This document shows positions 27,090 through 55,061 of a stretch of DNA of 64,000 bases, piece after piece. The DNA comes from an uncultured Litoreibacter sp. (lineage in GTDB: Bacteria; Pseudomonadota; Alphaproteobacteria; Rhodobacterales; Rhodobacteraceae). A program made the translations under genes and the position numbers. The notes beneath the pieces are model-generated. The model ran no database searches. It was given only the letters and a program-made list of their open reading frames with translations, and was not told the origin of the DNA. Location of the stretch: contig CANLOU010000003.1 of the NCBI GenBank assembly GCA_947492995.1, positions 62,001-126,000 of the forward strand, read 5' to 3'. The number at the start of each line of letters is the position of its first letter. Within the stretch, counting starts at the first letter, position 1.

Positions 27090-27989
27090 TTACCCACCCA
27101 AAACGCAAGATTTGACCCACCAATCGGGGTGGAGTTGCGTCAGCCGCGTGGCGGCGGCTTGGGCGAAACGCTCGTTTTCGTAGAGACCAAAACAGGTGGC
27201 CCCTGAGCCGGACATACGGGACAGTTTGCAGCCGTTTGAAAACTCCAAAGCGCGCAGCACGTAACCGATTTCGGGAAAGAGCGTGACGGCAGGGCGTTGC
27301 AGGTCGTTGCGTTGATCCGCGACCCACGCAATCAAATCCTTGGTGCGCCCGAAATGTTGGGGGGGTGTCGGCATGGGGCCGTTCTTCTTGGATTTGAGTT
27401 CTTTGAAAACGGCAGGGGTCGAGACCGCAATGCCCGGATTCACCAAGACCGCATTGAGGGATGGAAGACTGCGGTAGAAGGACAGTTTTTCGCCGATCCC
27501 TTGCATCCGGGCTGTCCGTGAGAAGAGGCAGACGGGAACATCAGCGCCGAGGTCTTTCAGCTGCGCCGAGATTTTGGACGTCTCTTCCGCAGACAGTTCT
27601 GCCGGGTCAAAGCCCTTGTGAAACAACGTCTCCGGTGCCTTTGGGCCCCAGTGATCCAAGAGCCCACGAAAGGCGGCGGCCGCATCGGCAGAGCCGCCAC
27701 CGATCCCCGCTGAGGCGGGCAGGTTCTTGGTCAGCAAAAAAGCAGCGCCATCGTCCTGAGGCTTAAAGAGCTGCGCACATTTCAGGATTGAATTGGCCAT
27801 GTCCGCGGGCACGCCGTCCGCCATCGGGCCCTCTACAGTGAGCGAAAGCGTGTTGGCGCTGAAGATGTCGAGACGGTCCCTGACATCGGCGAACATCACC
27901 AAGCTGTCGAGCAGGTGGTAGCCGTCCTCGCGCTGGCCTGTGACGTGGAGGGTCAGGTTGACCTTGGCAGGCGCAAATTCTGTGGTCAT
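27090..27989 (-). CDS. ispE: 4-diphosphocytidyl-2-C-methyl-D-erythritol kinase
   Basis: GHMP kinase of the MEP isoprenoid pathway: phosphorylates the 2-hydroxyl of CDP-methylerythritol. The 299-residue product starts MTTEFAPAKVNLTLHVTG with GGAGG upstream; 12 earlier codons are in frame but outside the family. It has the ATP-binding loop LPASAGIGGGSADAAAAFR at about 90 and the C-terminal SRMSGSGATCFGLY glycine motif. It converges on ispB with 72 bp between. It is the last minus-strand gene after the TPR gene, but a 428-bp gap separates the two. Confidence 0.93.
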   Translation of the reverse strand: MTTEFAPAKVNLTLHVTGQREDGYHLLDSLVMFADVRDRLDIFSANTLSLTVEGPMADGVPADMANSILKCAQLFKPQDDGAAFLLTKNLPASAGIGGGSADAAAAFRGLLDHWGPKAPETLFHKGFDPAELSAEETSKISAQLKDLGADVPVCLFSRTARMQGIGEKLSFYRSLPSLNAVLVNPGIAVSTPAVFKELKSKKNGPMPTPPQHFGRTKDLIAWVADQRNDLQRPAVTLFPEIGYVLRALEFSNGCKLSRMSGSGATCFGLYENERFAQAAATRLTQLHPDWWVKSCVLGG

Positions 27990-28417
27990 TCCGCTGGTCC
28001 CTCCGGTTTCGATCCAGTTTTGCATTATTTTAGCAAACAGAGCGCAGCAAAAATGATTTAATTCAAGCTTTGTTCATGCAGGTTCAGTTCGCTTTGAGAT
28101 CACCCTTGCCCGAAACGCGGCTCGCCGTTGACAGAATGCGGTGGGAGTTCACGTTCAATGCTCCCAGCGTGAGAGATGTCTGCTGTGCGGACGACGCGGT
28201 CGTTCGGGTCTGGAAAAATCCGCTTCGAAGCGGATTGGGGCAAACGTCTTCGAAGACGTTTTTGAGCACGAATTGCAATTCGTGCGTACAAGGCCGTTCG
28301 AACGGCCTTGTCCCGCTACGGGCTCAGAGCGGACGTTCGCTATGATCGAGCGCATAGAACCGCTTGGGGCATCGTGCTTGCGGTTAGAGTGGGCGCACGG
28401 ACACCTGTTGACCGCCT
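27990..28417. other. 428-bp intergenic region holding a palindrome array
   Basis: No credible coding sequence on either strand; short frames run through the palindromes and lack ribosome sites. The middle (28217-28311) is a regular array of four perfect palindromes. The rest should hold the ispE promoter near 27990-28060, where the sequence is A/T-rich. Confidence 0.6.
28217..28311. repeat. Array of four perfect palindromes with 24-25 bp pitch
   Basis: Palindromes: AATCCGCTTCGAAGCGGATT (28217-28236), AAACGTCTTCGAAGACGTTT (28242-28261), GCACGAATTGCAATTCGTGC (28266-28285), and a 24-bp one at 28288-28311 with core GGCCGTTCGAACGGCC. Centres are at 28226.5, 28251.5, 28275.5 and 28299.5. Three share the core TTCGAA but the arms differ completely. 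Each would give a hairpin in RNA or a cruciform in DNA. The array sits in the gap between the TPR gene and ispE. Confidence 0.9.
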
Positions 28418-30106
28418 TTAATTGTCTGCGGTTTCGGTTTCGCCGTTTGCGGCTTCTTCCTCAAGAACAACGTCGAGACCCACTTCGAGCTTGCGGCGAA
28501 TGCGGGCTGCGTCTTCCTCTTCCGGCTCGAAGGACAAAGCGCGTTTCCATTGGAATTCCGCTTCGCGGATCCGGTCCACTTTCCAGTACACATCGCCGAG
28601 GTGGTCATTGACGATCGGGTCCACGGGCAACAGTGAAACGGCGCGTTCCATCGGGGCCACGGCTTCCTCGTAACGGCCCAACCGGTAGAAAATCCAGCCA
28701 AGCGAGTCAGTGATGTAGCCGCTGTCAGGACGTTCTGCCACGGCGGTTTCAATCATGCCGAGGGCTTCATCCAGTTTGATCTGCTGCTCGACCAGCGCGT
28801 AGCCGAGATAGTTCAGAATGTCGGGGTGATTGGGCTGCAGTTCCAGCGCCTTGCGGAAATCTTCTTCCATGCCGACAAAGTCTTTGTTGCGCTCTTTCAC
28901 GATGCCACGCGCGTAAAAGACGGGCCATGACGCGCGGTTGTCTTCGCCGCGCAGCTCGATGGATTTGGTATAGGCGGCGATGGCTTCGGCGTCGCGGTCT
29001 GCCCTGCCAAGGAAGTCACCCAAAGACGCATGGACCATTGCGATGTCGGGATGGCTTTTGGCCAAGGCCGACAAAACTTCGGTCGCTGCATCCTTGCGAT
29101 CATCGGCATATAGCGCGTTGGCGCGCCCCATCTCGGCCAGAAAGAAAGCCGGGTGGGTGTTTGGCACGGTGCCATAGGCTTCTTCGGCCAGCGTGAATTG
29201 GTTAAGGTCTTCCAACATCTCCGCGCTCATGAGGGCCGCTTGCGCATGATCGGGGCGCAGGTAGCTGGCCAGCCGCGTGTAGATCAACACATGTTCCGGC
29301 GCAGCCCGGCCCTGAAGGATCGCGGCCAGCGTGAACAGGACCTCTGCGACGCCTTCCTGCGGCGTGGTGACGAAGGTGTAGTCGGTGCCGCCACCGGCCT
29401 CGATCAAGGCCTTCAATGCATCGAGTTCCGGGCTGAAAGCGGCGTCCGCGGCCAAGGTCAGCAATCCAAGCGCATCGTCCTTGCGTTCCAACTGCATGAG
29501 CACCTGCACATGGCTTGAGATGCCACGCTCGCTGAGGGTCAGGGGGCCGTAGCGCTCGCCCGAGAGGATGTTGTCGGCCCCTTCGAAGTCCCCGACCTGC
29601 GCCAGCGCCAGCGCCTCGTGGTAGTAGGCCAGCGGCGCGAAATCAGGGTCATTGGCGACCGTCGAAAAGGCCGTTGTTGCCTCGGACATTTTGCCTTCGC
29701 CCAGCAAGGCCCAGCCGCGCAGCAGCCCGTCGAGCAACGGCGCCAGCCCGGTGGTTTCGTCGGTTGGCACAGCGGTTTCGGCGAAAGAGCCTTCTTTCAG
29801 GGCGGCGGCCTTCAGGACCAGCGACACGATCTGGTTGGTCCCGCCAGCGGCGGCATAGCTGCGCCCGATGCGCGCGGCGGTGGGGACATCCCCCTCGCCC
29901 AGATTGGCGACCACCGCGCTTTCAAGCAGCGGCAGATTAGAGGGGTCCTGCACGATTGCGCGGGCATAATACTGCACGGCCTCGGCGTAATCGAAGGACA
30001 GGCTGGCCTGCCGCGCCGCCAGATAGGGGCCAGACACCTCCGCCTTGAGGGGGGCGGCCAGCGTGACCGCTGCCAGCAAGAGTGCCGTGGTACGAGAGAG
30101 GTTCAT
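28418..30106 (-). CDS. Secreted TPR-repeat protein
   Basis: The 562-residue protein starts MNLSRTTALLLAAVTLAAPLKA, a signal peptide with a likely cleavage near residue 22, so it is probably periplasmic or envelope-attached. In-frame codons upstream of this start are not signal-like and are rejected. Tetratricopeptide repeats fill most of the chain: SFDYAEAVQYYARAIVQDPSN near 35, AIAAYTKSIELRGEDN near 390, and a strong run from KALELQPNHPDILNYLGYA to EFQWKRALSFEPEEEDA at the end. TPRs serve in protein assembly; the partner is unknown. It follows the ETF-QO gene after 118 bp. Confidence 0.85.
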   Translation of the reverse strand: MNLSRTTALLLAAVTLAAPLKAEVSGPYLAARQASLSFDYAEAVQYYARAIVQDPSNLPLLESAVVANLGEGDVPTAARIGRSYAAAGGTNQIVSLVLKAAALKEGSFAETAVPTDETTGLAPLLDGLLRGWALLGEGKMSEATTAFSTVANDPDFAPLAYYHEALALAQVGDFEGADNILSGERYGPLTLSERGISSHVQVLMQLERKDDALGLLTLAADAAFSPELDALKALIEAGGGTDYTFVTTPQEGVAEVLFTLAAILQGRAAPEHVLIYTRLASYLRPDHAQAALMSAEMLEDLNQFTLAEEAYGTVPNTHPAFFLAEMGRANALYADDRKDAATEVLSALAKSHPDIAMVHASLGDFLGRADRDAEAIAAYTKSIELRGEDNRASWPVFYARGIVKERNKDFVGMEEDFRKALELQPNHPDILNYLGYALVEQQIKLDEALGMIETAVAERPDSGYITDSLGWIFYRLGRYEEAVAPMERAVSLLPVDPIVNDHLGDVYWKVDRIREAEFQWKRALSFEPEEEDAARIRRKLEVGLDVVLEEEAANGETETADN

Positions 30107-30224
30107 GTGGTGCGCCCGCTTTTGCTTATCCGTTGGACAGAAAGCTAGGGCGCGGGCCGGCGCTTGTCCATGCGTTGCGCGGTCACAGCAGCGTGCGACC
30201 GCGCGTATTTGCCGACAAATTTGC

Positions 30225-31859
30225 CTACATATTCGGGTAGTTTGGCCCGTCGCCGCCCTGAGGCACCGTCCAGACGATGTTTTGCGACGGGTCCTTGATG
30301 TCGCAGGTTTTGCAATGCACGCAGTTTTGGAAGTTGATGACGAATTTCTCGTCGACGACCTCGTAGACGCCTGCGGGGCAGTAACGCTGCGCGGGCTCCG
30401 CGTATTTGGGCAGGTTGACCGAGATCGGTATGGATGCGTCCTTGAGGTGGAGGTGGGCCGGCTGGCTTTCCTCGTGGTTGGTGGCGGAGAAGCTGACATT
30501 GGTCAGCCGGTCAAAGCTGAGCGTGCCATCGGGTTTCGGGTAGTCGATCTCTTTGTGATCCGCCGCCGGTTCCGTGCTGTCGGCGTCGTTCTTCTTGTGG
30601 CTGAGTGTGCCCAGCAGCGAGAAGCCCAGCGTGTTGGTCCACATGTCGAACCCGCCCAGGACGAGGCTGGCGGTGAAGCCGTAGTTCGACCACAGCGGCT
30701 TGACGTTGCGCACCTTCTTGAGGTCCTTGCCGATGGGGCCGGTTTTGACTTCGTCATTGTAGTCGACCAGCGTGTCGCCGCTGCGGCCGTCCTGGATGGC
30801 CTTGTAGGCGTGTTCCGCGGCGGCCTTACCCGACAGCATGGCGTTGTGGTTGCCCTTGATGCGCGGGACGTTGACCATGCCAGCCGAACAGCCCAGAAGC
30901 GCGCCGCCCGGGAAGGCGGTGTTGGGCATGGACTGGTACCCGCCCTCGGTGATGGCGCGGGCGCCATAGGCCACGCGTTTGCCGCCCTTGAGCAGGTCGG
31001 CCACCAACGGGTGATGCTTGAAGCGCTGGAATTCCATGTAGGGGAAGAGGTGCGGGTTGCGGTAGTTCAGGTGGACCACGAAGCCCACATAGACCTGATT
31101 GTTGTCGAGGTGGTAGATGAACGACCCGCCGCCGGCGTTCTTGCCAAGCGGCCAGCCGGAGGTGTGGGTGACGGTGCCCTCGGAATGCTTCTCGGGGTCG
31201 ATTTCCCAGATTTCCTTCATGCCGAGGCCGTATTTCTGCGGGCTGGCGTCTTTGGCGAGGTCGTATTTCTCGATCACTTGTTTGGACAGGGAGCCGCGCA
31301 CGCCTTCGGACAGGAATACGTATTTGCCGTGCAGCTCCATGCCGGGCTCAGAGTTTTCGCCGATGGAGCCATCCGCTTCGAGACCGAAGACGCCGGCGAC
31401 GACGCCTTTGACCTCGTCATTGTCGCCGAAGACCAGATCGGAGCAGGCCATGCCGGGAAAGATTTCCACGCCCAAACCTTCGGCGATCTCGCCCATCCAG
31501 CGGCAAACATTGGCCATGGAGACGATGTAGTTGCCGTGGTTGTTCATCAGGGGCGGCATGGGGAAGTTGGGGATGCGGACCTGACCGGCCTCGCCCAGAA
31601 TGTAGAAGTTATCTTTCTTGACGGGCACTTTGATGGGGGAGCCCATGTCGCGCCAATCGGGCAGCAGGGCGTCCAGACCGCAAGGGTCCAGAACCGCGCC
31701 GGACAGGATATGCGCGCCGACCTCGGAGCCTTTTTCGAGGACCACGACGTTCAGGTCGGCATCAAGCTGCTTGAGGCGAATGGCGGCGGACAGACCTGCG
31801 GGACCTGCGCCCACAATAACCACGTCATATTCCATGCTTTCGCGTTCGATTTCGGCCAT
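30225..31859 (-). CDS. Electron transfer flavoprotein-ubiquinone oxidoreductase
   Basis: Inner-membrane enzyme passing electrons from ETF (fatty acid and amino acid oxidation) to ubiquinone, with FAD and one 4Fe-4S cluster. The 544-residue product has the FAD fold YDVVIVGAGPAGLSAAIRLK near the start and a second substrate-side region GGFDMWTN. The C-terminal cluster domain has CPAGVYEVV and NCVHCKTCDIKDP, giving four Cys. The start at MAEIERES is favoured because AAGG lies nine bases before it; a Met three codons upstream (31868) is also possible. Confidence 0.94.
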   Translation of the reverse strand: MAEIERESMEYDVVIVGAGPAGLSAAIRLKQLDADLNVVVLEKGSEVGAHILSGAVLDPCGLDALLPDWRDMGSPIKVPVKKDNFYILGEAGQVRIPNFPMPPLMNNHGNYIVSMANVCRWMGEIAEGLGVEIFPGMACSDLVFGDNDEVKGVVAGVFGLEADGSIGENSEPGMELHGKYVFLSEGVRGSLSKQVIEKYDLAKDASPQKYGLGMKEIWEIDPEKHSEGTVTHTSGWPLGKNAGGGSFIYHLDNNQVYVGFVVHLNYRNPHLFPYMEFQRFKHHPLVADLLKGGKRVAYGARAITEGGYQSMPNTAFPGGALLGCSAGMVNVPRIKGNHNAMLSGKAAAEHAYKAIQDGRSGDTLVDYNDEVKTGPIGKDLKKVRNVKPLWSNYGFTASLVLGGFDMWTNTLGFSLLGTLSHKKNDADSTEPAADHKEIDYPKPDGTLSFDRLTNVSFSATNHEESQPAHLHLKDASIPISVNLPKYAEPAQRYCPAGVYEVVDEKFVINFQNCVHCKTCDIKDPSQNIVWTVPQGGDGPNYPNM

Positions 31860-55009: not shown

Positions 55010-55061
55010 CGAATTTTCGACGAAAATTCGCGGGCCGGCCTAAAATTTTCGTCGAAAATTT
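55010..55061. repeat. Inverted pair of palindromes between def-like gene and fmt
   Basis: A 21-bp palindrome at 55010-55030 (core AATTTTCGACGAAAATT) and a 19-bp palindrome at 55043-55061 (core AATTTTCGTCGAAAATT). The 17-bp cores are exact reverse complements, with GGCCGGCC at 55033-55040 between. The whole can fold in several ways. It lies between the stop of the third deformylase and the fmt ribosome site. Confidence 0.85.

Follow-up and report, generated by a model that had tools for sequence, protein, structure and literature searches.

The window analysed here, a 64-kb stretch of the host genome, carries an array of four perfect palindromes in the gap between a gene for a TPR-repeat protein and ispE (Table 1), with palindrome centres 25, 24 and 24 bp apart. 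A recount confirmed the original prediction as to the lengths of the palindromes (20, 20, 20 and 24 bp), their spacing and the TTCGAA centre of three of them, the third in order (H3) being centred on TTGCAA. The best named relatives of ispE were found in Mameliella, Fluviibacterium, Roseovarius and Phaeobacter, at 46–51% identity, which would place the host in the Rhodobacteraceae.

Table 1. Features of the TPR-ispE locus, in window coordinates.
Feature	Position	Strand	Description
ispE	27090..27989	-	downstream gene; homology begins at 27989, the probable start; listed ORF reaches 28025
Whole dispersed repeat element	28173..28340	+	about 165 bp; 17 copies in host genome including this one; ends degenerate
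Element left flank	28177..28212	.	inverted-repeat-like to right flank (by eye); copies vary
H1 hairpin	28217..28236	.	20 bp, perfect, AATCCGCTTCGAAGCGGATT, TTCGAA centre
H2 hairpin	28242..28261	.	20 bp, perfect, AAACGTCTTCGAAGACGTTT, TTCGAA centre
H3 hairpin	28266..28285	.	20 bp, perfect, GCACGAATTGCAATTCGTGC, TTGCAA centre
H4 hairpin	28288..28311	.	24 bp, perfect, ACAAGGCCGTTCGAACGGCCTTGT, TTCGAA centre
Element right flank	28314..28340	.	...AGCGGACRTTCG; copies vary
TPR-repeat protein gene	28418..30499	-	3' end toward array, stop 106 nt from H4; real start probably further in

Palindromes with arms of at least 10 bases occurred five times in the window, four of them inside the array, compared with 0.1 per 64 kb in 20 Markov-simulated windows matched in dinucleotide composition. 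When loops of up to 4 nt were also permitted, the rest of the window showed no second cluster of two or more hairpins.

The predicted RNA fold of the array reached -49.5 kcal/mol (z -5.4), and the DNA fold gave a z value of -6.8. The terminator scan made no call at the array, and the promoter scan found no promoter in the TPR-ispE gap. Rfam 15 yielded no match in window positions 27900-28700 at E<=1 and none among 10 array loci at the gathering score. Plasmid and phage collections contained no match to the host TPR-ispE locus or its array, and the plasmid collections none to one array each from three other genomes (G045, G055 and G205).

Two other palindromic features were observed in the window. 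A lone 20-bp palindrome, CGGTTCCCCGCGGGGAACCG, lies at positions 1962-1981, and its 18-base core was found twice in 400 kb of the congener G019. Positions 55010-55061 hold two related AT-rich hairpins, CGAATTTTCGACGAAAATTCG and AAATTTTCGTCGAAAATTT, whose starts are 33 nt apart.

Copies in the host genome and relatives in the family

A search of the host genome (3.84 Mb) with a 151-base query revealed 17 near-full copies of an element of about 165 bp, the TPR-ispE copy included, at 91-100% identity, as well as one further partial relative. The earlier claim that the array did not arise by simple duplication thus stands for the four hairpins within it and falls for the array as a whole, which is one of the 17 copies. 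Beyond the element, the remainder of the TPR-ispE gap is single-copy in the host genome. The ends of the copies appeared by eye as degenerate inverted repeats, and no target-site duplication was recognised by eye around them, the ends being too fuzzy.

The TPR-ispE gap measures 428 bp in the host genome and 3 bp in G019. Of the further host array loci with matches in 400 kb of G019, four gave a clear comparison (L142 and L152 did not). Two of the four corresponded to short, array-free gaps (41 vs 350 bases and 37 vs 452, G019 first), at a third the G019 gap was longer and unrelated (1752 vs 166 bases), and at a fourth it was unrelated and of similar length (164 vs 172 bases).

Three host copies (L145, L146 and L140) share extra downstream sequence to the right of the array. 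Sequence flanking L145, L146 and L150 was met with again at several places in the 400 kb of G019 and represents another dispersed repeat. In G019 contig C1, over 400 kb starting at position 1950001, the motif TGTCCGCTTTG, resembling the host element ends, had 4 occurrences where 0.2 were expected. The flank motif was rejected as a separate repeat, as only a small excess was seen, in G019.

By BLAST, divergent relatives of the array were detected in 2 of 20 congeners (G007 and G011), and the loci fetched from these two genomes had two to four hairpins of this kind, their arms being different. A first covariance model (A1) was built from ten arrays, namely two host copies and 8 of the 12 BLAST-found G007 and G011 loci, the four others having two or three hairpins only. 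With this model, 3 of the 21 genomes from the genus and, at E<=1e-3, 22 of 198 family genomes proved to carry arrays.

A second model (A3), built from 47 arrays, detected them in 34 of 395 sampled family genomes, or 31 of 351 genera, at E<=1e-6. In a 386-genome sample of the class it matched the host genome and, weakly, one genome outside the family. The array is dispensable, with no match in 361 of the 395 family genomes under the strict filter; absences are less certain than presences, because the large searches used strict filters, scored few candidates per genome and relied on models built from positive genomes. Absence of such clusters elsewhere, which would have spoken against the original prediction, was not what was found, as they recur in the host genome, in congeners and in genomes across the family.

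With 150 candidates scored per genome, matches at E<=1e-5, both strands summed, numbered 95 in G045 and 59 in G007. In a model-free census of a 1.02-Mb contig of G007, hairpins were grouped in fours at five places, in threes at two and in pairs at fifteen, compared with one or two pairs and nothing larger in two simulations. The model marked 12 places on this contig at E<=0.1, of which 11 fell on census hairpins and one (C2:1013031) did not. The weaker G007 matches were mostly shorter arrays of intact hairpins, with arms unbroken.

A second stem class accounts for one triple and a share of the pairs in the census. It consists of two- and three-hairpin arrays with CAAA...TTTG or CAGA...TCTG stems, mostly 3-nt loops and a pitch of about 25 nt, and was seen at G007:C2 39815, 138546, 262644, 396136 and 550190 and at G019:C1 1989070, 2057096 and 2065651. 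Several of these sites lie, by eye, shortly after stop codons; the class occurs also in G019, in which the model search found no four-hairpin array.

The 17 dispersed copies with inverted-repeat-like ends, the three G019 sites with shorter, array-free gaps and the patchy distribution across family genomes would be consistent with a selfish miniature mobile element, whose palindromes serve its own movement and for which gene ends are tolerated sites. This reading was nevertheless judged quite improbable. Besides the fuzzy ends and the lack of a target duplication recognisable by eye, the flanks vary while the stems stay intact, inverted-repeat-like ends are missing from the flank consensus of other genomes, and the arms are locus-specific. 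TnpA-REP/RAYT (Y1_Tnp, PF01797) was present in 2 of 12 array-bearing genomes and in 0 of 15 array-less congeners, so that mobilisation by RAYT is unsupported.

Architecture and position at gene ends

Eighty arrays from eight genomes were studied (20 each from G000, G007 and G045; 5 each from G200, G162 and G055; 4 from G205; 1 from G107), mostly top-scoring model matches, which biases the set toward intact arrays. In arrays with all four hairpins seen, the successive centres were 24-26, 22-24 and 23-25 nt apart.

With hairpin centres placed to maximise pairing, as also in the pairing, T-tract, substitution-type and tag counts, the centre of H1 was TCGA in 79/79 arrays and that of H4 in 75/78. 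H2 and H3 were centred on TGCA or TCGA in 60/78 arrays each and on other bases in the rest, their central two bases being unpaired in 16/78 and 17/78, respectively. The stem bases are AAG...CTT. A fifth hairpin was not a rule, 7 or 8 of 8 pairs being found on 4 of 158 outer sides. T-tracts were scarce, with at least 5 T in 8 at 1-18 of 78-79 sites per hairpin and strand. One locus consisting of two hairpins and a terminator (L159) was omitted from the pairing, location, T-tract and substitution-type counts.

According to a home-made codon-usage gene caller, 46 of 79 arrays lie in tandem gaps, 32 in convergent gaps and 1 in a divergent gap; an earlier, cruder caller had assigned 40, 34 and 2 of 80, respectively, with 4 unassigned. 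Flanking gene 3' ends (n=110) lay at a median of 17 nt from the array, 70 of them within 30 nt, as against a median of 131 nt for 5' ends (n=48), 3 of which were within 30 nt. For several convergent pairs, little of the gap is left besides the array. The arrays thus have the broad traits of REP-like 3'-end palindromes, namely many intergenic copies, rarity in divergent gaps and proximity to gene 3' ends.

No polarity relative to the preceding gene was detected. In 45 of the 46 tandem arrays (L208 omitted, orientations entered by hand), 17 had the same and 20 the opposite orientation, with 4 vs 4 among the amplified host copies; L207 scored equally in both orientations. A shared neighbouring gene as carrier was also considered and rejected, since none was general, although a few neighbours were orthologous. 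The TPR-ispE locus is nothing special among these sites.

Arrays between convergent stops, the AAG...CTT stem bases and the very stable folds would suit tandem bidirectional intrinsic terminators, whose chief job would be to stop RNA polymerase, with four in a row offsetting the missing T-tracts. Such terminators likewise place GC-rich hairpins between convergent stops, but differ from the arrays, which mostly have no T-tracts (no more than 18/79 sites per hairpin and strand reached the above limit) and set four hairpins at a fixed pitch. The window array went unflagged in the terminator scan, and the five four-hairpin arrays in 1.02 Mb of G007 are few for such a role. In addition, G007 possesses conventional A/T-tract hairpins, one of which adjoins a two-hairpin pair (C2:345508), and a classical terminator likewise adjoins the two hairpins of L159. 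Termination as the chief role was accordingly considered rather unlikely, and the scarcity of T-tracts together with these neighbouring terminators would favour sealing of 3' ends over plain termination.

Covariation of the arms

In the ten-sequence alignment, 40 cells were changed on both sides and 0 on one side, with 10/320 unpaired, whereas shuffles gave 10.1 both-sided cells. The 47-sequence alignment contained 224 both-sided cells compared with 51.7 in shuffles, 5 one-sided cells and 29/1503 unpaired, and sliding the partner abolished the signal.

Pairing in the stem core, positions 3-8 counted outward from the centre, was scored in 313 hairpins, three hairpins below the pairing threshold being omitted. 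Watson-Crick pairs accounted for 1871/1878, the rest being 3 G-T, 0 A-C and 4 other combinations. For comparison, MFE folds of 14 tRNAs (G007 and the window) gave 31 G-U among 333 predicted pairs, and those of whole arrays 65 G-U out of 3019, a total that also takes in pairings outside the four stems.

Comparison of the sequences therefore indicates that it is the folding, not the sequence, that is conserved, as the hairpins vary, between loci and between genera, almost only in matched pairs. Strong support for the original proposal, in which symmetry itself is the target of selection or of some mechanism, comes from the 0 and 5 one-sided cells and from the 7/1878 core pairs that are non-Watson-Crick or unpaired, the 3 G-T included. 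Decay of the arms without compensatory changes was not observed; compensatory changes are abundant.

Relative to the commonest pair, 287 paired differences were recorded in 64 arrays, comprising 167 flips, 64 transversion pairs and 56 wobble-passable changes, so that 231/287 are of kinds for which no wobble intermediate exists. Orthology between genomes seems likely at three sites, namely the trp region, where the genes on either side are shared, and the preA and ccoP 3' ends, with one shared gene each. At these sites, with the mis-centred H2 of L166 (odd loop) excluded, 42 of 66 cells were the same, 23 coupled and 1 unpaired, some of the coupled cells representing a one-base shift of the stem. 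The arms had changed in pairs, and one-sided change was not seen.

Among the 17 host copies, departures from the majority affected 2/1360 stem cells, 18/221 spacer cells and 5-39% of the in-element flanks. Purifying selection on pairing would most simply account for this stem constancy, the alternatives being conversion among the copies or recent spread.

Symmetry might also be kept mainly by mutation, through template switching at replication that copies one arm onto the other. Such switching is reported both to form hairpins and to repair them in a single step (PMC8794818), and the 231 differences that bypass a wobble intermediate would be consistent with it. However, unselected arm copying should have left many symmetric changes in the stems of the host copies, whose spacers vary; their near-invariant stems argue against it, and this explanation appears very improbable.

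Proposed function at transcript 3' ends and comparison with known elements

The nearest published relative found was Br-REP1, described (PMC5082802) as an element of Bradyrhizobium and Rhodopseudomonas with three stem-loops in overlapping 3' UTRs of convergent genes. Its central palindrome, a perfect 20-mer with a TCGA centre, occurs there at about 200 sites (PMC5082802). Br-REP1 and the arrays are alike in being alphaproteobacterial and intergenic, with several adjacent palindromes at gene 3' ends. Br-REP1 is described by a fixed consensus, whereas the arrays have four hairpins at a fixed pitch with arms covarying between loci. The Br-REP1 palindrome, CCGGAATCTCGAGATTCCGG, matched the 80 arrays at best with 6 mismatches of 20. 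The original statement that no feature type covers the array was thus too strong, as REP-like 3'-UTR palindromes of this kind come close.

Classical REPs are linked to TnpA-REP and a conserved tetranucleotide, most often GTAG (PMC8266576). REP/BIME elements resemble the arrays as intergenic hairpin-forming palindromes in many, often clustered copies. They differ from them in the tag, GTAG (on the opposite side, its complement) standing beside 0/306 hairpins and the CGTC variant beside 20/306, and in PF01797, which was not found in 10/12 array genomes.

Caulobacter and other alphaproteobacterial CIR/IRU repeats are long, dispersed and intergenic with an inverted-repeat organisation, and in these respects would resemble the arrays. 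The literature search found no description of four-hairpin arrays, with the subscription literature, mostly outside its range, possibly holding one. To our knowledge, few natural elements keep four perfect palindromes at a fixed pitch despite sequence turnover. The word Rhodobacter is absent from the main text of a REP survey (PMC12306157).

The favoured reading, on which our judgement is evenly balanced, is that the arrays are REP-like, strand-symmetric RNA hairpin arrays that would seal the 3' ends of transcripts arriving from either side, or terminate them, and be kept by selection for pairing. Strand symmetry, 3'-end placement, the stable RNA fold and the paucity of wobble pairs are in keeping with an RNA element read both ways, and Br-REP1, a three-palindrome element with cDNA reads in convergent 3' UTRs (PMC5082802), serves as a precedent. 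Of the roles originally offered, a chain of RNA hairpins for the TPR-ispE transcript has the best support, at the transcript 3' end, without the locus being special; a relic of a palindrome-generating element is not needed.

Throughout this family of elements the layout is four short hairpins at a pitch of about 24-25 nt, with linkers of a few nt, close to stop codons. An array transcribed from either side might slow or stop RNA polymerase at adjacent hairpins, and the main role of these hairpins would be to seal the mRNA 3' end. Short linkers would give 3' exonucleases little single-stranded foothold between hairpins. If transcripts from both sides use the array, a G-U pair on one strand is an A-C mismatch on the other, so that double-arm Watson-Crick changes would be the ones to survive. 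In the host genome, one array has in addition spread to 17 sites within the element of about 165 bp.

Several points count against sealing or termination of transcripts, among them the dispensability of the array, the alternatives to selection for the constant stems of the host copies, the bias of the set toward intact arrays and the G-U pairs in whole-array folds. Tandem arrays make up 46/79, and at least one of them (TPR-ispE) interrupts what was once an operon; strong termination there would do harm if no promoter came next, and the promoter scan found none. Furthermore, a DNA-level function predicts an equal Watson-Crick rule. Cruciforms or a chromosomal protein-binding site (a supercoiling sink, or a site of the gyrase or nucleoid-protein type that has been suggested for REPs) would agree with the almost Watson-Crick-only covariation, the absence of polarity, the constant pitch and the DNA fold. 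A dimer site, however, would predict conserved half-sites rather than covarying arms, and the 3'-end placement is better accounted for by RNA. Convergent gene ends are also expected to collect positive, not negative, supercoils, which counts against the DNA-level reading. Overall, a DNA-level element was regarded as improbable.

A further, tentative reading, possible though unlikely, combines sealing at the RNA level with template switching. The arrays would act as strand-symmetric locks on 3' ends, each stem changing in a single template-switching step before selection screens the outcome, giving compensatory evolution almost without intermediates. The two- and three-hairpin arrays of the second stem class may suggest that the family makes general use of hairpins set about 25 nt apart at gene ends.

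If the RNA reading holds, converging transcripts would be ended from both sides by hairpins mostly without T-tracts. If the strand-symmetric lock reading is true, the arrays would amount to a naturally occurring system for compensatory evolution, dozens of loci being present in each genome. Whether paired stem changes pass through weak intermediates or arise in one template-switch event is a long-standing question; with tens of loci in some genomes and orthologous-looking sites between genera, stepwise and single-switch stem change become testable in this family.
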